DNA of 64,000 nt from Volvox africanus (Eukaryota > Chlorophyta > Chlorophyceae > Chlamydomonadales > Volvocaceae): contig BSDZ01000078.1 of NCBI GenBank assembly GCA_030268105.1, forward strand, positions 1,178,001 to 1,242,000, written 5' to 3'. The notes under the pieces were generated by a model. That model ran no database searches. It worked only from the letters and a program-made list of their open reading frames with translations, and was not told the origin of the DNA. The translations under genes were made by a program, and so were the position numbers. Shown one piece after another: positions 35,401 to 53,400 of the stretch (its first letter is position 1; each line of letters starts with the position of its first letter).

Positions 35401-38400
35401 CCGGTCGTGCTCAATTTCAACCCAGATAAAACCGGGTCTCCCCCAGATCTCGCATAGCAAACGCACATAACAGCTGGGCCTTCAACCGGGCGGCTGCTCA
35501 GTGTACACTTCCTCTTCTAGCTCACCGTGCAAAAACACAGTCTTGATGTCGAGCTGATGAAGCTTGAGATCACGATCTGCAGCGACAGCCAGCAAAGCAC
35601 GAAAACTGGCATACTTCCCAACAGGGGCGAAAACCTCCCCAAAATCAACTCCTTCCCTTTGGGTAAACCCTTTTGCGACCAGGCGAGCCTTATAGTGCTC
35701 AACATTTCCATCAGCATCACGCTTTATCTTAAAGACCCATTTTAGCCCAATCTTCCACGCACCCATGGGAATCTCCTCCAGCTCCCACGTGCGATTTTCA
35801 TGAAGGGACGCCATCTCCTCATCCATTGCCGCCTCCACTGCGGCCAATCTACACGGGAACGAGCCTCTTCCAGACTCTTAGGCTCCTCCATCTCCGGTTT
35901 GGAAGCTAACATGGCATAGTCCTTCTGCCATCCGGGTGGCTTCCTCTGACGAATTGGACGAGGAGGGGTTGGATCCGGGTTACCAGATTCCCCGGTATCT
36001 CCACTAGAGCCCTGTCCCGTTCCTGAGCTGGCTTCATCACCACCAGCAGCATCGTCATAGTTGTCACCATCATCCGTCTCTGACACGCCATTATCTTCTT
36101 CCTCCCCTTCATCATCATCCTCCACTAAAGGAGGGACCTCACCGTCATCCATGCCTGCCTCATCCACATCTCCCACGGGGGCACCAGCAGCAGGAATGAC
36201 AGGAGCACCACCTGTGGTACCCACGCTGGCCACGCCTGCATTTCCTGCAGGGGCACCAGCAGCATGAGCAGTAGCAGGGACACCTGCATCAACCACACCA
36301 GTCCCGCCAGCCTCTCCTGCATTTCCTGCAGCGGCACCAGCAACAGGGACTGATGGACCATCCCGAACGCTAAACACCTCTAACTCTGGCCGAACATGAT
36401 CACCAAAAGCAAACTGATCCTCAAGGAACACAACATCACGTGTGATCTGGATAAGCCAGTTGTATCCTTCCTTCTTCACCCATGCACTAGATCTGCACGT
36501 CTGGGTGTTAGATACAAGTGCCTCATGCTTACGAACAGCAAAACATTTCAATGCGAGCAATGTGACAGCGGAAGACTTCGGAGCAAGAATTCAACTTACA
36601 ACAATTCTCAATTACAGAATGGTAGTCGGCCGTCAGACCCCGCGGGCAGCGTTCATCATACGGCTGAAGATGGTATGCTGGAATAGCTCAGGCCGATAGT
36701 AAATGATTATAATGTATGTATGTCAATCATATGGAATTAAGTACGCGAGTACTTATCCAAAGTAGCGTCGAGACCGACTTCGGTCTCTAGGCGGCTGTCC
36801 TCAAACCTATCATGCTCGTGATGCCGATGTGCAGTACAAATCACACTGGATCCCGATCCCAAGTGTGAGTACTATCAGAGCATTCTCCTGAATATTGAGT
36901 AATTCATGAGTTCAATGGATGCAATGTATGCATGGTGCAAAAGTCCGAATATCAATATTCGGTTGCCGACTAACCATTGCAATCATTGCATTTCCGCATG
37001 CACGCCTGATTCATGATACAAATGCTGTAATATTTTATTTTATATTACTTGATGGATTATGCCATAATGGTGTCGTGCTTCAGTGTCAAACTCGAGTCAA
37101 ACATGTTGACTGACAGCGTGATGTCACGAGTGATGTCACGAGTGATGATGCGGAATGCTAATCTAGCTAGATATACACAAATATATCAAGCTAGCATGCT
37201 CATATCATGTTTGCTCATGCTTCGGTAGACTCAAGCCTACTTTGGCATGGGTGGTGATCGAACTGTGGTACAACACCTGTCTCCCAACAGAATGCGGTAT
37301 GTTGTGCTACGGTTCGTTTCCTGCCGATGCGTAGGTCAATGCGACGCTACAAGGCGATGTGTTGACTTGATGAATGATTGATGAATATGGAATGAATTTG
37401 CATGACATAAATGTATTTGCATACATTTATATATGTTTGGCATGTTACCATTATACATCCCAACATGTCCCATTGCATCATGGCTGATCCGCCTAACATG
37501 CACGAAATCCCGAATAATTGAGAAGCGCATTATGCTCATGCTATGGAGCAATAAGTAATATTATTTGATATAATATTACATCATTATGGCATACGTTGGG
37601 AACGCCGCACTTGTCGCGATACATGCCTTGCAACCGAATATCGTTATTCAGACCCTTGCATCATGCGAATGCCGGAAAGGCTTATCGGTTGTTAAGTACT
37701 ATGTAAAGCTTTCGTCTAACGCTGATATCAGGTTCTAAGGTGCGTGATAATATCTTCTAAACATATACATGATCCGTACCCCTCCGTACTGGGATGACTG
37801 ATTTAGTCAAGTCAATTTGAGAAGCTTAATCTGTGAATATCGATGGCTAATATACAGGAAGACCAGAATTCTGGACATCTCCCGATCGGGCCTTTGCTGT
37901 TAGGCGGACATCATAACTGAGAACAAGAAGCCGCTCCTACAGTGTTACAGGTCTAAGTGAGGGTGATGAGATATGACTGCCTCGCAACCCTAACATTGTT
38001 GGTAGGTATTGAGACGTAGACTATCAGACATAAGGAAGCCTGACGTAATTACGAGAAAGTAGAGTTACATATTATCTGATAGTAAGGAGTCCGAATAGTT
38101 CGTTCTGGAGTCGGCACATATACTTGTGCGTATAGCACTACAAACAGTACGAACGCGGGTTGATAGCTTACCGCCGAGTACAGCTACAACAGCGGGATTG
38201 TTGCTAGTATGGATCGCTATATTCAACTGATATACCATTTTATAACACGCCCCCTCGAGACATGCCTAGCAACAAGTGAAAGAATATAATTCCAACCAGG
38301 GATTCTTCTTGGAACCGAAAAGCTTAAGCCAAACGAGTTTGCCCCAAACAAACTTAGAAAGCTTACTCGGCCAACCCCATCGCCGTAATGCACTTCTTAA

Positions 38401-41400
38401 ACTTTATCTCTCCAAGTGCCTTGGTTAGCACATCTGCTACCATATCCTCCGTCTAACAGTGTGATAAGGCAACTTCCTTCCGCAGGACTCGTTCTCGCAC
38501 TAGATGATGTTGCACGTTGATGTGCTTAGAACGAACCGACATTATCAGGTTATTCCCAAGGCTCATCGATCCCTCAGAATCCGTTCGAATCTGAATAGCC
38601 TGTGTCCTCAGACCCAAGTCTCTGGTCAGCTTGCGAAGCCAAAGTGCCTCCCGCACTGCAGCTGCCGTGGCCTGGTACTCTGCCTCCACTGTTGAAGCTG
38701 CCGACGTGCGCTGCAATTGGCTGTTCCAGCTGATAGCTGCGCCGTTTAGCAAGAATACGTAGCCAGTTGTGGACCTCCGAGTGGCTGGATCTCCAGCCCA
38801 GTCAGAATCACTGTAGCCCACCATGGTGAGATCGCCATCTCCGTCATAGCATAATCCGAGCTCCTTGGTACCCGCCAGGTATCGCAGCACCCCCAAAGCC
38901 AAGCCCATGTGAACCTTAGATGGGTTGCCCATGAAGCGCGCCAGAACGCTCATTGCCTGCGCGATATCCGGTCTTGTGCTCGTCGCCAGGTAGTTCAATT
39001 CGCCGACAAGCGCCCTGTACTTGGTGTTGTCTACGAGCTCCTTGTTGTTGTCTTCTGCTGGCAGGGCTCTAGTACCAGGAGGTAGTGGGGTCTTTCGAGG
39101 CTTTGCATTGACGAGTTGATGTCGCTGCAGCAGCTCCTCAATGTAGCGTCGCTGCGATAGTTTTACCTCCCCGTGCGCTCCCCGGCTGATCTCCATGCCC
39201 AGGAAAACTTTTGCCTCTCCAAGATCTCGAATCTTGAAGGCTTGTCCGATTTCTGTTTTCACTCTCCTAATCATTGCCTCGTCTTCTGAGGTGATGATGA
39301 TGTCGTCCACGTGCACCAGCAGGTAGACGATCTCCTTCTCGTCCTTTTTGATGAACAGTGCTGGGTCCGCTACTGACGGTTTGAACCCCAGCTTGTCCAG
39401 CTCCACCGCTAGCTTCATATACCAGCAGCGTGGGGCCTGTTTCAGCCCGTAGATTGAGCGTAGAAGCCTGCACGCCTGCTCTGGATCTGCTGACTCGTAA
39501 CCAGGCGGCTGCTGCATCCAGAGCTCCTCCTCTAGCTCCCCGTTCAGGAAAGCTGTTGAAACGTCTAGCTGATGGATCGGCATTGCTTTAGCCGCAGCCA
39601 CCGCCAGGAGCATACGAAGCGAAGCAAAACGCGAGGTTGGAGCAAAGAGCTCCCCATAATCAATCCCCGCCCGCTGCTCGTAGCCCTTCGCCACCAAACG
39701 TGCCTTGTAGCGCTCGATCTCGCCATCCTCTGCACGTTTGACCTTATACACCCACCGACAAGGCAGAATCCGCGCACCTGGCGGTGGTTTTGCTAGCTCC
39801 CAGGTCCCATTTGTGAGCTGTGCTGAGATTTCCTCATCCATGGCACTTCTCCATTCCTCAGCATATGGGCCGTCAGTGGCCTCCTGGTATGAAGCTGGCT
39901 CTGGTACTTCTTCCTCGATTGCAGCATTGATCCGCCCGAACGTAACCCTTCCGTTGGGCTCATGCCTCCATTCAATCAGTCGCTTTCGCTCACGTAGTGG
40001 ATAGCGACGTTCCTGCATATTAACGTCTGCACCGTCGTTGTTGTGGTTTTGCTGCTGCACCGGCCCTTCGCCTGTCATAGCGTCTCCACCATTGCCTCCG
40101 CGGGACTGCGCTGTATTTTGCGTTCTGGGAAACTGTGCTGCTGGTATGCCTGCGTGCCTCTGTGGCGCCGCTGTCTGGCCGCTGCTGGTGGATGCACCAT
40201 GGTTCACTTCAGCAGCTCCCTGGTCCATGTCGGTGTTGACCAGCGTATCTCCGCCGCCCCCTGGCGACGGAACGCCGCCAGAGTCCTCGACATCCTCCTC
40301 GTCGGAATCCTCATAGCGATCTCCAACTGTTGACTCGTCGAACTTGACTGTCGAGTGGGTGCTGATGAGATTGTTGATCAAGATGCGGTACTGCCTCCCT
40401 TGCTCGTATCCAACCAGCACTCCTTTTTTACTCACGGGTTGCAGTTTGTTCCGCTTCTCCTTCGGCACGTGTGCATATGCGGTACTGCCGAAAACTCTCA
40501 GATGGCTTATGTCCGGCTTCACCCCCATGAACGCCTCATGGGGCGTTACTGATGCCCCCACGACCGGCGAAACGTTGCGCAAAAGATTCGCCGTAGCCAT
40601 GGCTTCTGCCCAGAGCTTCTGCGGTAGTCCTGACTCCGCCAGCATTGCCCGGGTCTTCTCCAATAGGGTCCTGTTGAGGCGCTCCGCCGCCCCATTCTGC
40701 TCCGGCGAATACCCAACGGTCGTACCATGGATAATCCCTTTTTCGCCGAAGTAGGCGCTCATGGCTGAGTTAAGGAACTCGGTCCCACGATCCGTGCGTG
40801 CCTCCTTCACGCGACGGCCAGTCATATTCTCCAGCGCCTCGATCATTGTCTTGACCTTCTTCCGAACTGCGTCCTTGGTCTCCGTGAACGCAACAGTAGA
40901 AAATCCCGTGCAGTCGTCCAGCAATGTAGTAACGTACCGGGATCCACCTATCGAAGTCTCAGGCATAGGTCCACAGACGTCCAGGTGTATCAGGCCCAGA
41001 GGTTTCGCCGCCTTGTGTCCAGTGGACGGGAATGGTCCACGTGTTTGCTTTGCATAAATGCAGGGCTCGCAGATCCGCGACCTGGCTGCTTCCAGACTCA
41101 CGCGATCCAAATCCATGCCGGTTACCATGTGTTCCCGGCACATACGTTCCAGGCTCTTGTAGCCCAGATGCCCCAAGCGCCGATGCCACAGCGCTGCCTT
41201 CAAGCCTTCTGACCCGACCGCCGCACATGAGCGGCCTTTCTTGGCTAAACGCCCTGCTGTGTGATGGCGAACAACATAGAGGCGTCCCACTTTGTCTGCG
41301 CGTAGGATTGTCCTCTCCTTTGCTTGCACGAGTGCTTTGTTGTGGCCCAGCTGGATGGTGGCACCACGCTCATCAAAGATCCCTGCTGAGATCAACTTCA

Positions 41401-44400
41401 CTGTCGCCTTGGGCACCACATAGACGTTCTTGAGCTCAATTTGCAGCCCCTTGACGGTGTTACTCCACATGGTGTAACGGGTAGTGCAGTAACACTGCTG
41501 CTATTGATGGTGCTTATGTTTCGGCCAGATTTGAATGTTGTTATGATGTTCTCAACAGATTGACTATTGCAGGGACGTTAGATAAAGGAGATACATATGA
41601 AGTAGAGTTAGCAGAAAGAATATTAGATGCGGCAGTAGAAAACGATATATTAATATATGACCGTGGATATTGTTCTTATAAGTTTATAGCAATTTTATTG
41701 CAACAGAAAAAGCATTTTGTTATTAGATGTAAGCGTAGCTTTTTTAAAGCAGTTACTGCTTTTTTTAACGGTGAACAGGTAGATAAAGTATTTAATATAC
41801 CTGTCCCAGCAGCTCAGAATAAAGTGATAAAATACCTAGGTTTACCACTTACTATAACAGTACGTTTTGTTGCCGTACCTTTGCCAACTGGAGAAATAGA
41901 AGTATTGATGACTTCTCTATTGGATTCAAATATTAATAAGGAGGAATTTAAAAAATTATATGGTTTTAGATGGGAGGTAGAAACATTTTTTGGAGTACTA
42001 AAAAGTAGGTTATCACTAGAAAATTTTACAGGTTTAACGGTGGAAGCAATTAAGCAAGATTTTTGGTCAACAATTTTTATCAGCAATTATGAAACTATAT
42101 TAACTTTTAATATAAATAAAAAGATGAAAGATGAGAAAGCTTCATCAGCACACAAACAATTGAAAGAAGCCTCAAAAGTAAACAAAGCTGTAACATTTAA
42201 TATTATTAAACATCAAGCAATTGATATACTAGACCTCTTGCATAACCTTACTTTTTGAGTTCAAGATTATAAACTGCTGCAATTAAATTAAATCTCAAGG
42301 CGAATCGTTTTCGCCTATTTCTATAACGATCAGCGATAATTTTAAATCTTTTGATCATGCATATAACGTTTTCATTTAAAGCCCTCTCACTGGCTAGCTC
42401 GCGGTTCCTACGTTTATCTTCTTTGGTTAGCGGATGCTTTTTGGTCTTTTTCTTTGGCAAAGCCGAATTATGATGAAGCTTGCTTATACCTTGATAACCA
42501 CTATCGGTAAGGCTTTTAGTCTCAGGGCGAATACGTACTTTTGATTCTTTAAATAACCTAAAATCATGACGCTTCCCATTTGCAAAATTGGTACAAATGA
42601 TCCCTTTCCTCTTCTTGTCTACAATAAGCTGGGTCTTTAATGTATGGCGTTTCTTTTTTCCAGAGTAAAAACGCTTTTCTCTTTTTTGGGGCGTTCAATC
42701 GGAGTCTCGGTAGCATCAATAAGAATTAATTCATACTCCATGTCGCTTTTTAATAAAGCTTTACGCCCAGGTAGCGAAAATTGTTTGTCTTTGATTAGGG
42801 TATCTTCAACCCATCGTATGTTCCTATAACATCCACTTTCGCTTATCCCGTAACTCCGGGAAGTATGAAAATATGTCCTATATTCCCGCAAGTACTCAAG
42901 CGTCATAAGTAGCCTATCCTCCATAGCTAACTTGTTAGGTTTGCCGCCTTGCGCTTTTAAAGCTGCTTCAGCTTGCCTCAGTATCCCTAGCATAACCGCA
43001 AAAGTTGTTCGCTTGATACCTGTAAGCCTTCGAAATCCTTCCTCAGATTCATCCTTTATTTGTTCAAATTTTATCATAGCCTTGCTAAAATCATAAATCT
43101 TAGCTAATCCCTTAGGTTATGCAAGAGGTCTACTGTTAAACCCTAAGCAAGATACTGAAAGTAAAATACAAGAATTAACAATTCTATTTAAAATTGCTAC
43201 TATTCCAATTCGGAAAAATCGTACTCCACCCAGAAAGAAAACATCTTATGCACGTTCATATAACTTCCAGCTGAGAAAGAAAAAACATGTCTATTAATTT
43301 ATTTATTCTAGGGTATTTTCCTTAACTTAATGGCAGTGCCTAAAATACCTGGCGCACAACAACAAGTTTCTGGAGTAATGATTCTAATGTACTGTCACAC
43401 CTTGTGCCAAAAGTATAAGCAACTACTTTTAACGAAATCTTATCCAAAGCATACCAAAGCCACCTTTGTTTGGCTTTGTTCTGTACATAAGACCATTGTT
43501 CATCTATTTCAGGAGCAATAACTACTTCAGTTGTGCTGATAGAATGATTTACCGTTTTTAACGCCAGATTTTTTTAAAATACGGATAACAGTATTGATGC
43601 CTACTTTTAATACCCTGACTGTATCCCTGACGCCAGAGCCGTTAATTGCCATTTCTACTATCTGCTCCTTTACTCCAGGCTATGTGCAGTAACATGGTGT
43701 AAAAGCAGCAGACCCACGTGGGTCGGCTTATACTTGGAGCCATCGTAGCCAACCACCGTGAACATTTCTTCTGGCTGCACAGCTCTCACGTCCTCCAGCT
43801 CTGTCGCGTCGTAGGTGATATGCCATTCTGACGCTGAGTCCAGGTGCCAGGCGTTCGACCGCGACTCGTTTCCAACTGCATACGCCATTTTTGTGGGCTC
43901 CCTGCGCTGAAGGTTGCCCCCGCCGCGTCCATAATTTTGTTGTTGGTCTGCCAGGCGCTTCTTGCATACTCCGATAAAATGCCCTGGCTTGCCGCAGTAA
44001 TGACAGATAGCGTTTGACTTGCTCCTCTGCTTACTTTGTTGATTACGGCCTGTAGAGCTTGCGTTGCCACCACTTCGGTGTGTGATGTATGCGGATGATG
44101 ACTCCCTGTTGTCATCGTCCGGTATCACATACGCCATGAGTCGCGCGACCACTTGCGAGAAGTCCAGCTCTCCTTCACGCATTGTCAGGGCTGTTGTTAC
44201 CACATGATACTTGCTCGGAAGTCCTTTGATGACAATTATAGAGAGCTCCGTGTCTGCGACTGCGTGTCCCACATCCAGCAAGTCCGACTGTAGCTGTCGC
44301 GCGCGGCTGATATAAATTGGCAGCTCCTCTCCATTAGCCATTTTAAAATCACTTAGCTCCTGTCGTAGTGCTACCTTTGCAGGTTGATGCGAACGTAGCC

Positions 44401-47400
44401 GCCAAAGCGTCCCAGGCGGCCTTCGCATTTGCCGCCCGAACAATTGTTTGGAGGTGATGGTTCTTTACGTTCTTGGCCATCACACTCTTGACCTTGTCGG
44501 AGATGATGACATCTGCCTCTGCAATTGGTGCTTGTAGCAGGGCGCGACTGTATCCAAGCTCCGCGCAGAACAATTGGAATCGTAGTTTCCAAGTTGAGTA
44601 GTTGTGTAAGTCCAGCGGCTCATCCAGCCTATCCTTTCCCATTGTGAAGACCTATAAACGCGAAGATCAACACTAGAATGGGCAAAAGATGTCAGGCTCC
44701 GCGGTCAACGATGACCGGGGCTCATAACCTATTGAGACGTAGACTATCAGACATAAGGAAGCCTGACGTAATTACGAGAAAGTAGAGTTACATATTATCT
44801 GATAGTAAGGAGTCCGACTAATTCGTTCTGGAGTCGGCACATATACTTGTGCGTATAGCACTACAAACAGTACGAACGCGGGTCGATAGCTTACCGCCGA
44901 GTACAGCTACAACAGCGGGATTGTTGCTAGTATGGATCGCTATATTCAACTGATATACCATTTTATAACAGTAGGCCTAGCGCGGCAAATGACTGAAGCC
45001 GGATACAATCACTCAATAATCTAGTAGATGCCACGCTCGCTCCAGTACGTTCCGGATGAGTAAACACGATAGAAACCACGTCTGTAATTTGGGAAGCTGT
45101 CTATAGCTCGACTATTATGCCGACCAATAGTCCATTCTTTTAGACGATTTTGGCATCGACAATAGTACGACTTGTTACCTGTACTAGATATAGTCCGCAC
45201 TATAGTCGGACGACTATAGACCATGTGGGCTATAGTACATGACTATAGCTATCTTTTCTGGTCGACTATAGTTCGACTATGCCCCCCGGCAAACTATTAG
45301 CCGATGCTCCGCGCTAAAGTCGACCAGAAAAAATACAGACGCATAGGCATAGTCTTAAGATGTCTTACATGCTCTATTACCTCAGGACATCCACACATAC
45401 GTACAGTAAGGGAATTATATTCATCTGCAACCTAGCTAGCTAGCTAGCTAGTTACCACTTCCGGCACCAATTAGGCATGGCTGGCTTATGGCCTCAATGC
45501 CCACTCCATCCACCCGGCTCATATTTGCTGCGTTTGACACGCAGGTGGCAGTGTGACTGAGGGTCATTGGAATCACACTCGAATCCCAGTCAACCTCCGC
45601 TGGCCTGGTCTGCTCGCGGCTTTACTGAACGCCCGATTCCCCTGCAACGATCCAGCGGGGCACGTGGCTCAGAACCAAGGACGCGGAGCGACGCCAACCA
45701 GCGCGTGGATTGAAACATTGACGGGGCAACAGGAAGTGCAGTTCCAAGGCGTTGACCTGGTCCTCCTGGAGACGGCGGTCAACCAGATGGCGGAACGCGA
45801 GCAGGCCCAGATAGACGCGGAGATCCTCATGTCGATGGTGACCAAGCAATCCCGGCGGAGCATGACAAAGTCTCAGTTGGAGCAGGCGACGACCAGTGAC
45901 GGGCAGTTCATCCGGGGCTTCACCGGCACGGCAGCCATGTGGGTGGTAGCTTCCACACGTCGGTTCGTAACTATCTGGTGAGCTCCGTATATGTTGCACG
46001 TGTGCAGCTGTTTGTCTGTAAGGATCTTCGCCGTCTGGGAGGTACAGTGCAGCAGGCTTACTCGTATAAGGAAAGAACATAAAGATGGATGGATGCATCA
46101 TACCTGATGGAGAAGATCTATATCCATAGGTAGAATATGAATGTATCGACATGATGTATGGATAAAATCCATACATGTGTTCATTCGTAATATGTCCATC
46201 CGTTGATGGATAGGTGCTTGGGCTGAGGTGTTTGTAGAGTTTCAGGCCTAGGTCGTGCATCCGTTATATATATAACCGGATGGGGCTTATATACTCTGCT
46301 GCTTGAGCATCTGGCTGGCACAGCAACAAATCCACTCCGGATCCCAAAATACTAATGATTTACATATGCGTGCGGATCCATTGCTTACCCTAAATCCAAT
46401 CACGTAGTTTGCTATTCCATGTTTTCTTACTCATTTTCGCAGGACTGGTGTGCCGTATGAACGAATTTCTGATGCGATGTACGCCCAGCTGCCAGTCGCC
46501 CAGCATCATGGTGTTCCAATAATTTCAGGTGAGTTGGAATGGAGCGAACATCGATGAGTGCATGGAAGAACCCACGACTGAGTGAATGGTAGGACTGAGG
46601 TAGAGACCGCTATTGCTTGGAAAGGGAGTGTCATTGCCGAATTATGTCACGGCAGTAGGACGTGTTGTATCTCTGTGTCATCTGCATTAGCAAGTAAAGG
46701 CTCAATCGGTAGATGTGTTGTATATGGTACCCACGAAGGGTGGTATCAAAAGATACCGGTTGTTGTGCCAGAGCCCGATTAAGTAGAGCCGCCGACTAGG
46801 TCGTACTTGAGAGACCATAAGGCCTCGAACCGGGCGTGACCTTCAGAAGTCACCACTACAACCGGAGATTCAGTGAACCAGGAACCAGATGTTCCACCAT
46901 TTACCATTCAGGCGGTAAATGGCCCATTCCATACAGGTTATGGAGTAACCGACAGGTTCGGATGTTTCAGGAAGTCGGTTAGTATTGGTCGTCGACAGCC
47001 GAGACCAAATCCACAAATCGAATGCCAGATGGAAACATGAAACAGTTAATATGATAATTAAATATATTATATTATAAAATAATAAACAGATAATTATTAT
47101 ATCTTAATGGATTACCGAAATGCATTAAGGATACAACAATTGTTCCCCCTCTAGATGCAGCGTCCCGATGCATAAGAAGAGAGCAGACAGGTTGAAGTAG
47201 GACAGCGTCAGAGAGGTCCGTCCTTAGACTGTGTCCGCAGCCTAGCTTCATCAAGCAGGGGTTTCATGTCAGGGGTGAAGTTACGTGCCGGTTCCCAGCT
47301 ATTGTGCTCAGATGAATACCCAGACCATTTAACCAGGTACTCATGCACATTGCGCTTACGCCTGCCCTTGCCAACACGTCGTGCAGGGTAATCTAGGATA

Positions 47401-50400
47401 CGTTCGACAGCATACAGGGTCTGCTTACCCGATAACCAGGTAGAGGGATTAGCTTCCGTAACAGGAGGGATGCTATCGTTAGCCTCAGGTAGAGTACCCC
47501 GATATGGACGTACGAGAGATACATGAAATGTGGGATGAATGCGTAGGTCAGATGGGAGTTGTAACTCTACAGCCACCGACCCTACCATGCGTACGACAGG
47601 ATAAGGCCCCACAAAGCGCGGTAATAACTTGCGAGACCCATCAGCCAGGGAACGAAGGTTCTTCGTGCTCAACATAACCAGCTGGCCCTTAGTGAACATG
47701 ACGTCCTTTTTGGACTTGTTATAATAGTCCATAGCCCGTTGCTGTGCAGCTTCCAGGCAAGCTTTAGCGTCAGTTAGTCGGGACACGAAAGACTTAGCAA
47801 ACGTTTTTGCAGCTGGAACATTTACGTCCAACTCCCGCCAAACAGGCAAAGCAGGGTTAAAACCGTAATTCAGGAAAAACGGACTATTACCAACGGACCG
47901 GTTAGTAGCATTATTAATGGCAAACTCAGCAGCGGTTAGGTAGGTATCCCATGCAGTAGGGGTGCGTCCTGCAAAGTTACGGAGCATATCACCCAGGACA
48001 CGGTTAACACGCTCTGTTTGCCCATCAGATTGGGGGTGGTAGGCGGTGGACAGGTTCACCCGCATTCCTACCAGAGTCCCCAGGGCGCCCCAAAACTTAC
48101 TTGCAAATTGAGTGCCGCGGTCAGATACCACGGACTTGGGGACCCCATGCAAACGTACCACATTGTCGAAAAATAGACGGGCCGTTTGCTCAGCTGTGCA
48201 GGATGATGTCGTGGGGGCCAGGTGGACCATCTTGGTGAAACGGTCGACCAGGACCAGCACGGCATCGTATCCTCCCTCAGTTTTGGGCAGCGCAACAATA
48301 AAGTCCATAGAGACGCTTTCCCACGGAGCGTCAGGAATAGGAAGAGGTTGGAGATGCCCATGTGCTTTACCAGACTGGGCCTTATTGCGCTGGCACAGGT
48401 CACAACAGAGGACATAATTTTCGGTGTCCTTAGCCATGCGGGGCCACCAGAATTGACGCCGCAAAAGCTCTAGTAACCGCGTGCAGCCAGGATGCCCAGC
48501 AAGAGGGCCGTCATGAAAACGTGAGAGAAGTTCACGACGTAATGAATCGTCGTTAGGTACAACAATCTGACGGTGGGATCCTTCCGATCGGATCCATAAG
48601 CCATGCTCCTGTGCCAAGTGCCCCGTGTTGTTGTGAATTGTGAACCACGGGTCGGCTGCATAAGCCTGTTTCAAGCGCTTGGTAAAATCGGAGGGCACGA
48701 AGTTAGGTTTTGCCTGAGACCTACTCCGTGTGCTTACCGCCAGAATGGCTGCATGCAGTGAGGGGTGCCTACTGAGAGCATCAGCTATGTTAAGTGAGCC
48801 GCCCAGGTACTCCCAATCAAAGTTAAACCGTGCCAGGTATTCCATCCAGCGGGCCTGGCGTCGGTTAAGGGAGGGCACACCTTGCAGAAACGTAAGGGGT
48901 TTGTGATCAGTCTTGAGGGCAAAAGGCCGGCCCTCAAGGTAACATCGCCATTCCTTCAAGGCATGTAGGACCGCCAGAAATTCCTGTTCCCCAGTGGTAT
49001 AACGGGTTTCAGCCCCCGAAAACTTCTTACTCGTATATGCAATGGGGCGTCCCTGCTGCAACAGAACTGCCCCCGTCCCATGTATAGATGCATCAGTTAT
49101 GACCTCTACACGGAACGGCAATGAGTAGTCAGGGAAGTGCAGGATAATATCATCAGAGATAGCACGCTTCAAAGCATCAAAAGCTTCTTGGCATGCGGGG
49201 GTCCAGGCCTCAGGTGAAGAGAAGGCTCCCTTACGTGTGAGGTTTGTTAGCGGTGCAGCAATGACTGAGTAGCGCTCTATGAACTTACGAAAGTAGTTGG
49301 TCAGGCCCAAAAACTTACGCAGTTCCTGAAGGTTGGAGGGCACTGGCCAATCCCGAACAACAGCAGTTTTCCGGGGGTCCATCTGTATGCCACCCTGAGA
49401 CACTATATGCCCCAGATACTCCACCTGTGGTTGTGCCCAGTGGCACTTAGAACGCTTAGCATACAGCTGCTCACGCCGCAGAACCTCAAAGACCAGGCGG
49501 AGGTGTTGTATGTGCTCCTCACGGGTCTTTGAAAACACCAGGATATCGTCCAGATAACAGATGACGAATTTGTCGATGTATGGCCTGAAGATGCGGTCCA
49601 TGACGGCTTGGAACGTTGCAGGGGCGTTCGTCAGTCCGAAACTAAGGACAGTATATTCAAAATGGCCAAACGGCGTACGGAAAGCCGTTTTAGGGATGTC
49701 AGATTCTGCTATACGAATCTGATTATACCCCTGCTGGAGGTCAATAGAGCTAAAGAATGCAGAATCTTTTAGCTTATCCAGCAGATCATCGACACGTGGG
49801 AGGGGGTAACGGTTCTTAACTGTTGCGGCATTTAACCCCCTATAGTCAATGCACATTCTCAGAGTCCCATCCTTCTTTCCCACAAACAGAATAGGGGCGG
49901 AGTATGGGGATGTGCTTGGCCGTATCATACCTTTTTTCAGCAGCTCAGTAACCTGTCGTTTGACCTCGTCCAGCTCCAAGGGGCTTAGCCGATACATGGG
50001 GCGGGAAACGGGTACTGCACCAGGCACCAAAGGTATGGTGTGATCCACAGGCCGCATTGGAGGCTTACCAGGGACCTCCTGGAATATATCTGCATATTCC
50101 TGTAACAGGGCCTCAAGCTCAGGGTCAGTGGCATCAGCTGGGATAGAAGTTGCATTCAGGTGCAACTTGGGCCGTACTAGTAAAGCATGGGCCCCCTTGC
50201 GAATCATGCGAACTGCTGCTTTTCTGCCAACAACTTCAGGTTCAGTATGCTGACAGATAGCAGTGGTTGCATAATTAAAGCAAGGCGCAGGTGTCATCTG
50301 ATCTGGTGGCTGTCCGGCAGTAGTAAAGGGTACCTTGCAGACTAGATTCCCCTTGCGCAGGCGCAAAGATTTAGCCTCATAGTCAAGGACAGCCCCATAC

Positions 50401-53400
50401 TGTGCTAGCGTGGAAGAACCCAAGATATACGTGGCAGCGTCAGTTAGCTCAGGCAACACGTATGGGCGGACATTTAACCTTAAAGGACCTGCAGATAGAC
50501 GAAGATTAACCTGCCCCAAGATAGCCTGCTTACCCCCATCAGCAAGGGTAACTTCTGACCAGGAGCATGGGCTAGGTTTCAGGCCAAGCTGCGTAACCAC
50601 TGAAGCCGAAATGAAATCATCACTGGCTCCAGAGTCGGCTAGGGCGGTGAACGTACGACCTGCCGTACTTACGGTGATCAGAGGTACGCCAGCACCTATC
50701 AGGGCAGCAGCTTTAGGCAAGCAGAGAACTGAAATACAGGGTTCAGTCTCAGGCAAGCCCTCCTGAACCGATTTAGGAGCAGCAAACCAGACGTCAACAG
50801 AGTATGGGCTTCCAGGGAGTTGAACAACCTCACCTGCCGTATCAAGGCTATGGAAAAGAGCCGTCCCTGGATTAAACCTTAAGACCCGTTGCATTCCCGA
50901 CAGAAAAGAAGGGTTGCGTCGGGACACATACTCAGGCAGCAAGATGCATGCTGAGGTATCAGGGTGTTGACGTTTGCATGCCCTAAAGAGAGCTAATTGC
51001 TTCTGTAGCTCGCAGAGTGAAGAGGGAGTGAACAAGATAGTATGCCCACCCAAGTTAGCGGAGGATAGGGGGCGACCTTGAGGCTCAAACAGATTACAAA
51101 AGCCATCAAAGCCGGCACGGACAGTTCGTGCATCAAAAGAAAAACGTCTCCCTATCACCTGCTCCACTTGGTTTAAAACAGAGGGCAAAAGAGCCCGTAC
51201 TGCACGGCACTTTGCTACCATCTGGCCCACAGCAAAGACCCCAGGTGGTGATCCCTCTATACCAGCCTGGGCAAGTTCCTAGTGGTCCTTACCCTTATTT
51301 TTCTCCGCCCCCAGCATTGGGCAGGAGTCAACCCTATGTTGGTCGGAACCGCAACGGAGGCACATCCCATGTTGTTTACGGAAATGGAACTCCCGTCTAG
51401 TACATTTGAATGTGGTTAAATATTCCGCTAGGTTCTGCTTGGGCCCCTTCTTCTGCACGTGGCCCCCTTTTGGGGCCAAGTGCCTCCCCTGCTGTCCGCC
51501 GCCCCTCTTAGACTTACCGGCGCCCTTAACCTGCCGCGGCTGATCCTCGTGCCCGGTGATGCCTGGACGAACGGATGCAGCCCGCGGTTTTTTGGTCGGG
51601 GGCGCCGGGGTCTCCTCGTCAGGGTCGTCGCAGGCCATGTCCTGTACCGACAGCATGTTCATTTTGGGACGGGCCAGTTTGTCAGATTCCCGTCGGGCCA
51701 GTAACCTAAGTTCAGCTCCCAGGGAGAACTGAACCAAGTCTGTATATGACTTAAAGGTTTTACCCGACAGGTCAGTTGCACAGTCCCCACTAAGGTCGGA
51801 TGAGAGGCCCTGCTGAAACCAAAACACACGCTCACTATCAGACAGGTCCGCAATGGGCGTGACAAGAGCCTCAAAGCGGCTCTGATAGGCAGAGACAGTT
51901 TCTCCAGGGCGCATGCGGTATTTGCCAGCATTTAATTTCAGGCGTGCCTCAGTGTCACGTGACTGGACCTGGGGTGCAAAACGGACAAGCAGTGCTTCTA
52001 GCAGTTCCTCAGATGTATAGGAATCCCTTGCGTTAGTCCATTGATCGTGCCATAATCTTGCCGCGCCTTCAAAGGCAGTGGCCAAGAAAAGACGGCGCGT
52101 AGAGTCCTGTTGACCCCCACGGGCTGTGGCAAAGTAGTTCCTAACATTACGGACAAAGGCCCGTGTTAGAGGCGCAGCAACTCGTCCTAAATCAGAAAGC
52201 TTAACATCCATAGGGATATTCAGCTTAGGCACTGCGATCGCTATTTTTATCACCTCGTCCTCATGTCCAGTATGAGGAGGCCCAGGTGGCCTGGAAGAGG
52301 TGCCCGCAACAGCAGCACAAGTTGTTGCGGCAGCAGCGGGAGCCATCCCAGGAATATCCACGGCACCAGGTGTCAAATGGTTTGACACTACAGCAGGGCC
52401 ATGAACATAAAAAGGGGATGGGGCATAAATAGGTGATGTAGGTGCCTCAGGGGATGCTGTGCCGCCTTGCCTGGGAATAGGTGAAGGCTGGTTCGGAAGG
52501 TCGATACCACCTGCCACAGCAGCATTTGGTGGCTGTGTCAACCTAGAGAGCCATTCCCACCTATTCACTTGGCTAGCATTAGCAGCAATCCGGCCAACAA
52601 ACTGAAAGGTGTTGGCAGCAAGAGCCGAGACAGCATTCGCTAAGTTCGAGGCTTGCATATTGTATGCCTGAAAGCCTAACAGATCGAACTGCGAGTGACT
52701 GTTCTGGCGAAAGGCAAAGCAAAGGCAAGGACCAGGGCCTACCCAACGCTTGGATGCCTTCGATGAACTTCAAAAATTTTGAAGTCCGCGCGTGAAGTTG
52801 ATTTGCGATGGATCGGAGTGACTGGGCAGAGGTGCCGCTCCGAAGGGTCTGAGGTGTTGACACTGCAGAAGCACTCACGGCGGTTGGAACAAACACAATA
52901 CCTTTCAAGTAATAGAGATATATATGTATTAGTGAAAGCCGAAGTGAATTCACGAAGTCGACTCCTCGTTGGATTCGATGCAAAGGTACTATCGAACCCG
53001 CAACTACAGGGATTCCTCAGCAAAACTGCAATACAAGTTCTAGATAGAAAGCAGTGTTGCAGGAAGATATTACCTAACAGAGAAGGCAGAATTGTCTAGG
53101 TCGCGAGCCACGTTGACCGCGACTAACTTAGAGATTGACTTTAACAGAAAGCACAGCCAAACTCACAGAGAGCAGGTTCTAAGTGTCACTAGACTAATTT
53201 CGTGAATATTACAGACCGGTGGTAGCCGCAGCGAAAATGGCGGCGCTCAGCTCCTCAGGCAATGTCTCCATGTCCAGAGGGATGTCGGCAGGAGGAAGAT
53301 CGTGGTCGATGTCCATTTATAAAAGGGCAGCTTGAGTGGCTTGAGCGCGTTGCGCGGTTAGAGTGGCTTGAGCAGTTACCACAGAAAGACTTGAGAAGGC

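Follow-up and report, generated by a model that had tools for sequence, protein, structure and literature searches.

The window analysed here, a 64,000-nucleotide stretch of Volvox africanus DNA, holds a copia LTR retrotransposon that is interrupted by a block of foreign DNA (Table 1). The element carries RVT_2, rve, gag_pre-integrs and Retrotran_gag_2 domains, and its pol frame (38453–41470) and its gag (from 43713 rightward), both on the minus strand, lie on opposite sides of the block. The two LTRs are identical at all but 3 of their 241 positions, a 5-bp target-site duplication (GTAGG, 38002–38006 and 44971–44975) borders the element, and its pol protein is 97% identical over the full length to the V. 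africanus protein VaNZ11_009969. The element is young and belongs to a family with many genomic copies. The copy in the window sits on a 7.5-Mb contig, and the block has host nuclear sequence, that of this multi-copy element, on both flanks. GC content is 32–40% in the four 500-bp windows that lie wholly inside the block, compared with roughly 57% just to its left and 49–52% to its right. An earlier note on this DNA had described an AT-rich block with IS4-, IS5- and IS1-type transposases that separates gag from pol, a description borne out by the base composition, the profile matches and the positions of the copia frames.

The same note had placed the retrotransposon in an intron of an SGNH-hydrolase gene, and this we could not confirm. 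The one flanking exon-like frame examined (45553–45981) had no SGNH match in Pfam (E 0.1) and no match in the PDB (E 10), and a scan of the plus-strand open frames for a GDS-type motif returned a single, unconvincing place. Two further retroelement frames lie on the minus strand of the window: a chromodomain-type retrotransposon polyprotein in a single open frame (47208–51230) and a fragment of a further copia-type reverse transcriptase (35485–35877).

Table 1. Positions in the window of the copia host, the foreign insert and its parts
Feature	Coordinates	Strand	Remarks
Host copia LTR retrotransposon, recipient of the insert	38007–44970	−	LTRs 38007–38247 and 44730–44970
Whole foreign insert, 2,232 bp	41481–43712		Exact edges from 37 of 37 copia copies and edge sequence
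Left filler, 13 bp	41481–41493		Between copia edge and first Megaira-aligning base
11-bp direct repeat GTGCAGTAACA	41484–41494 and 43684–43694		Inside the insert
IS4-family transposase gene, middle and C-terminal part, without N terminus	41494–42230	+	NF033592, 115.2 bits (cut-off 115)
Complete IS5-family element, 901 bp, two transposase frames	42231–43131	−	18–19-bp terminal inverted repeats
Rest of the IS4 copy: C-terminal part and right end	43132–43361	+	98% to Megaira 1444225–1444456
Part of an IS1-family copy, InsA/InsB-type frames	43365–43681	−	Truncated on one side by the IS4 copy, on the other by the insert edge
Right filler, 31 bp	43682–43712		Contains a copy of ACATGGTGTAA, a sequence of left flank 41467–41477

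Structure of the nest and its bacterial donor

‘Candidatus Megaira’ is a Rickettsiaceae endosymbiont of algae. The IS4 protein of the block is 97% identical to that of the ‘Ca. Megaira’ endosymbiont of Mesostigma viride (one confirmed locus among 57 pattern matches in a single genome-contig scan), and its DNA matches the Megaira chromosome at 96% over 736 bp (1443515–1444228) and at 98% over 232 bp. The two halves of this IS4 copy, about 900 bp apart in the window, are adjacent in Megaira with a 4-base overlap. Between them lies an IS5 element that combines terminal inverted repeats and an IS5 transposase with a short target duplication: ACT stands on either side of it (42228–42230 and 43132–43134), and the uninterrupted Megaira copy has a single ACT. 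Both IS5 frames match NF033581, each scoring under the whole-protein cut-off. The IS1 part scores under the whole-protein cut-off for NF033558 and over the cut-offs for PF12759 and PF03400. Bacterial genes are cut at both edges of the block, as the earlier note had observed: the IS4 frame spans profile positions 134–326 of 332, the first 133 being absent, and the IS1 frames span positions 43–152 of 199.

The IS1 part starts at exactly 43365, just beyond the end of IS4, and this start is common to four other nuclear fragments and to two copies in another genome of the Megaira genus. Because the IS4 copy is uninterrupted in Megaira, with a single ACT there, and because the start at 43365 is shared, we regard the block as one contiguous piece of bacterial chromosome. 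Judged from its sequence, it is a contiguous nest, an IS5 element within an IS4 copy next to a partial IS1, with genes on both strands.

Matches to the block occur in three of four Megaira-genus genomes. The IS1 part is 93% identical to one of them (G002) and 77% to another (G004); the IS5 part lacks a close counterpart among them (best 70%, G004), and one of its protein frames has relatives of up to 94% identity among proteins of public collections. These identities indicate that the donor was a Megaira outside the four genomes. By sequence comparison, the IS4 and IS1 parts trace to the Megaira genus, and the place of the IS5 part in the nest suggests that it, too, came from the Megaira donor. 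The proposal that DNA of a Rickettsiales-like endosymbiont had moved into the nucleus and come to lie within a copia element finds support in the IS4 and IS1 identities, in the close match of the copia protein to V. africanus and in the uninterrupted copia copies described below.

The insertion site and its junctions

The assembly searched comprises 140,993,249 bases in 126 contigs. With window positions 40900–44300 as the query, it gave 80 matches (40 of 204 candidate places scored). Among the matches listed, 37 other copies of the element have a left match that ends at query position 581, and in all 37 the right match resumes on the next base at query position 2814, so that window position 41480 is joined directly to 43713. 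An uninterrupted form of the insertion site therefore exists in every comparable copy, which places the insert at 41481–43712; the target neither lost nor duplicated a base. P0121, an uninterrupted relative protein from V. africanus, has no break at the residues matching the insertion point. The foreign block that the earlier note had bounded at 41495 and 43683 is present, but its true edges lie farther out on both sides. The 11-bp direct repeat that the note had reported as flanking the block is also present, but it lies inside the insert. We considered GTGCAGTAACA as a target-site duplication and ruled this out, since the empty site in the 37 copies puts both repeats within the inserted DNA; the left copy overlaps the first bacterial base, and both copies are otherwise in filler stretches.

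The window insertion is blunt, with filler whose limits rest on alignment to relatives of the donor rather than to the donor itself. When the right filler was shuffled, an 11-base match to the flanks was reached in 1 of 1,000 cases with 100-bp flanks on each side, in 4 of 1,000 with 300 bp and in 15 of 1,000 with 1,000 bp. In the left filler no match to the flanks within 100 bp reaches 7 bases, so flank copying is shown for the right side only. Filler copied in part from a flank is apparently a signature of break repair, by enzymes that we presume to be those of end joining.

These junctions bear on the possibility that a bacterial insertion sequence transposed on its own into copia in the algal nucleus. 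The block is indeed made of transposable elements and contains an 11-bp direct repeat, GTGCAGTAACA. However, both outer insertion sequences are incomplete, the exact empty site shows no target duplication, the repeat falls in filler, and the genome also carries scattered Megaira DNA other than insertion sequences, for example 16S. As regards the outer edges this explanation is already refuted, and we give it almost no credence.

Megaira fragments elsewhere in the genome

Searched against the genome, the block matched 40 places including itself; the other 39 matches are 36–251 bp long, and 30 of them are at least 95% identical. Two 20-kb segments of the Megaira chromosome, picked without long repeats as judged in part of the DNA compared, gave 45 and 43 matches in nuclear contigs (40 of 55 and 40 of 50 candidates scored). 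Counting only matches of at least 80% identity, the two segments gave 73 matches that cover 11.6 kb per 40 kb of donor. Scaled to the 1.45-Mb chromosome from 2 of 72 segments, this would correspond very roughly to 2,600 fragments and 0.42 Mb, an estimate possibly inflated by a stretch of segment 1 (1.0–2.7 kb) with many 75–91% matches, as expected of a multi-copy family, and deflated by candidate places left unscored. A third segment (40 of 118 candidates scored), in which an IS21 copy and a group II intron predominate, did not enter the estimate. A 20-kb segment of the Megaira plasmid gave 33 matches, the longest of 3.0 kb. The Volvox chromosomes probably carry very many more Megaira-like fragments, and on this extrapolated total the window insert would be one of thousands.

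Megaira 16S gave 13 partial matches in the assembly, the longest of 498 bp (13 of 13 candidates scored); those at 77–87% identity may be organelle-derived. Three long, overlapping 16S pieces compared with one reference are 99% identical to it at C11:304329 and 95% at both G000:C76:4636403 and C86:1730863, which suggests two or more donor lineages or widely differing insertion ages. With 5 of 3,057 candidates scored, the Rfam model of bacterial SSU likewise gave partial matches only. Since all of the 16S matches are partial, the assembly is unlikely to include an entire endosymbiont chromosome. Contigs that match bacterial DNA were removed from the published assembly, so the culture itself may or may not have harboured a living symbiont.

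Several loci carry longer or repeated Megaira-like sequences. Nine IS21 copies or parts of copies (0.9–2.3 kb, 95–97%) lie at G000:C36:50592-52412 and 335906-396551, and among the matches scored (40 of 118 candidates) IS21 copies of this kind were seen only on this contig. The contig could be a plastid or bacterial replicon. In checks of this, rbcL had no match in the assembly, as expected if organelle contigs were removed, and the 20-kb Megaira plasmid segment gave a single 201-bp match there. At G000:C47:96078-159508 there is a tandem array with a period of about 2,425 bp, the listed units of which carry a Megaira match of about 356 bp (90–92%); this stretch adjoins an IS21 copy and overlaps an Rfam group II intron match. 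Two copies of one Megaira plasmid stretch, in parts of 3.0 and about 1.35 kb, occupy G000:C23:2171493-2176250 and C114:51094-55876, both with a 380-bp gap, perhaps from a single insertion that was later duplicated. Within 30 kb at G000:C26:1637593-1666717, one Megaira stretch (788–915 bp, 88%) occurs three times along with a 132-bp part, as if an insertion had been copied locally.

We fetched 33 loci around the block matches and compared them with the Megaira chromosome and 80 of the 84 kb of its plasmid; mosaics were thus sampled only where the genome matched the block. Thirty of the loci hold 197 Megaira pieces, 15.2 kb in total, with a median length of 60 bp (middle half 50–74) and a median identity of 90%. 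Where pieces from the same replicon abut (12 bp apart or less), 4 of 62 pairs across the 30 loci lie within 2 kb of each other in the donor, the median donor distance being 404 kb. All four orientation combinations are present among the pairs, and the pieces divide 103 to 94 between the two orientations. Abutting pieces that come from distant donor positions and from both strands were seen at L021, L023 and L046, the loci for which individual donor positions were listed, whereas the window block is contiguous and not a mosaic.

One such array, L021 (G000:C5:740500-750400), has 63 pieces, many of them butted, with a median of 59 bp, in 9.5 kb at 30% GC. The Megaira mosaic is at least 9.4 kb long, its left edge lying near C5:740,930 and its right edge past the fetched stretch. 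Of the 9,471 bp, 3,831 are accounted for by the Megaira chromosome and plasmid, a figure that rises to at least 5,566 when the listed matches to three other genomes are added; the remainder may be shorter pieces or donor-specific DNA. At L023 one donor-continuous stretch is split by other DNA, with 326 bp between its parts, and at L021 a repeatedly matched donor region gives donor-adjacent pieces that lie far apart or reversed. We saw no other nesting among the mosaic pieces, and its near-absence favours joining in one step over stepwise growth. Overlaps at junctions range from 0 to 12 bp, with a mean of 2.5 compared with 0.77 at random (n = 44), a difference to be read with the knowledge that BLAST alignments may extend by chance past the true ends and that the mean omits 18 junctions with gaps of 1–3 bp.

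The shortest pieces detected are about 25–35 bp, and the 18 that are abutted on both sides measure 35–97 bp. Such lengths may be the sign of a sizing nuclease, and random break-up with a shorter true mean would also fit. We found no sign that the pieces originated from RNA: 166 of 197 midpoints (84%) fall in long open frames, compared with 87% of the reference chromosome, and the orientations are even. One donor region, at about 1,364,800–1,365,550 of the reference, has far more matches than the rest. It is single-copy in the reference, and by eye it contains transposase-like frames; we suppose that it is multi-copy in the donor.

The fetched loci also bear on the role of the retrotransposon. 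The copia reverse transcriptase might have taken up bacterial sequence by template switching on particle RNA, with integration of the resulting chimera. The position of the insert within a retrotransposon and the lack of net change to the target would accord with this route, and such switching could also account for the 11-base repeats and the copied flank. Against it, the nest is a continuous stretch of DNA that carries genes in both directions, and endosymbiont RNA would have had to enter algal particles. A close copy of this copia family is absent from all 33 loci, the nearest being one 67% match (L032), which indicates that the insertions are not a copia matter. Template switching thus seems improbable.

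An assembly artefact, in which sequencing reads from a co-cultured endosymbiont became fused to contigs of the alga, deserves consideration in that the donor is a bacterium possibly present in the culture. The insert, however, lies exactly within one copy of a young copia family and has filler on both sides, and block fragments recur in the 33 fetched loci on many contigs, with a GC content of at least 45% in one or both 400-bp ends at 31 of the 33 and in both ends at 21. The genome that carries the insert is very probably the assembly of V. africanus 1101-NZ-11, whose size it matches. According to passages of PMC10291315, that nuclear genome was published as 141.0 Mb in 129 gap-free contigs, built from PacBio reads at about 197× with Illumina polishing; contigs that matched bacterial or organelle DNA were removed. 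We therefore consider an artefact very unlikely.

A probable route from endosymbiont to chromosome

The block is, in all likelihood, nuclear-integrated DNA of a ‘Ca. Megaira’ endosymbiont that was sealed by end joining into a break in copia. In the order of events that we infer, an IS5-family element would have jumped, in the bacterium, into an IS4 copy that itself lay in an IS1 copy. A piece of this nest of about 2.19 kb would then have been freed, presumably by death or lysis of the symbiont, and would have entered the nucleus, where putative end-joining enzymes would have sealed it into a double-strand break within copia. Repair would have involved no loss of target sequence and left a short filler at each end, part of it apparently from the nearby flank. 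Some of the released DNA would have kept kilobase length, like the window block, and some would have been reduced to tens of base pairs; at some sites, donor DNA may first have been cut to that size and then joined end to end in random order.

In the volvocine relative Chlamydomonas, passages of PMC13205664 describe short double-stranded oligonucleotides that enter induced breaks, that are concatenated in more than half of Cas9 knock-outs and whose insertion at breaks drops in KU mutants. The joining of short foreign duplexes end to end at breaks resembles what we propose for V. africanus, although the DNA was experimental there and would come from a symbiont here. More broadly, and tentatively, the V. 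africanus genome could be a fossil archive of repeated Megaira infections, in which dying symbionts were digested to tens of base pairs and the pieces strung randomly into breaks by host end joining; we rate this wider reading at slightly less than an even chance. If true, it would represent a distinct shredding route from endosymbiont to nucleus, one that spreads samples of a whole symbiont genome in single events.

Transfer of this kind has a precedent in Volvox carteri, the nucleus of which was reported in 2015 to hold Megaira-group DNA in a single region of roughly 9 kb that contains parts of 16S, murB, ddlB and ftsQ (passages of PMC4324946); these partial inserts are cited again in PMC9098888. 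Both cases involve Megaira-group nuclear insertions in Volvox, truncated genes and a host transposon close by, and the available text of PMC4324946 states that no symbiont was seen in the V. carteri strains. The present case differs in its species, in the nest of insertion sequences within copia, in the many contigs involved and in the shredded mosaics. Nuclear matches to a Rickettsiales endosymbiont number up to hundreds per genome among the NUWTs of filarial nematodes, including hosts that have lost the symbiont (PMC12693587, in part). In contrast, the host here is an alga and the donor Megaira, and end-to-end mosaics of pieces of about 60 bp are not described for NUWTs in the passages available. 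Complex numts, nupts and numins likewise combine distant pieces from both strands at one nuclear site with marks of end joining, and the portions of PMC6215612 at hand cite numins that span 3–92 kb and comprise as many as 100 segments; unlike these, the donor here is a bacterial endosymbiont rather than an organelle, and the detectable pieces are very short. A search of open-licence papers, which is weak evidence, found neither endosymbiont-derived mosaics with such short pieces nor a report for V. africanus. Transfer into V. carteri is thus already known, and the scale, the host and the shredding appear to be new here.

Nuclear genomes screened by dropping ‘bacterial’ contigs or short matches would miss such DNA or misread it as contamination. 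The insertions would also supply naturally formed products of end joining in algae where break repair is under study for genome editing, and they show foreign DNA entering chromosomes without the retention of whole genes. Volvocine cells are described, in passages of PMC4324946, as non-phagotrophic, yet a nuclear genome of this group contains, dispersed through it, what appears to be a large sample of an endosymbiont's DNA, which would let past infections be dated and counted.
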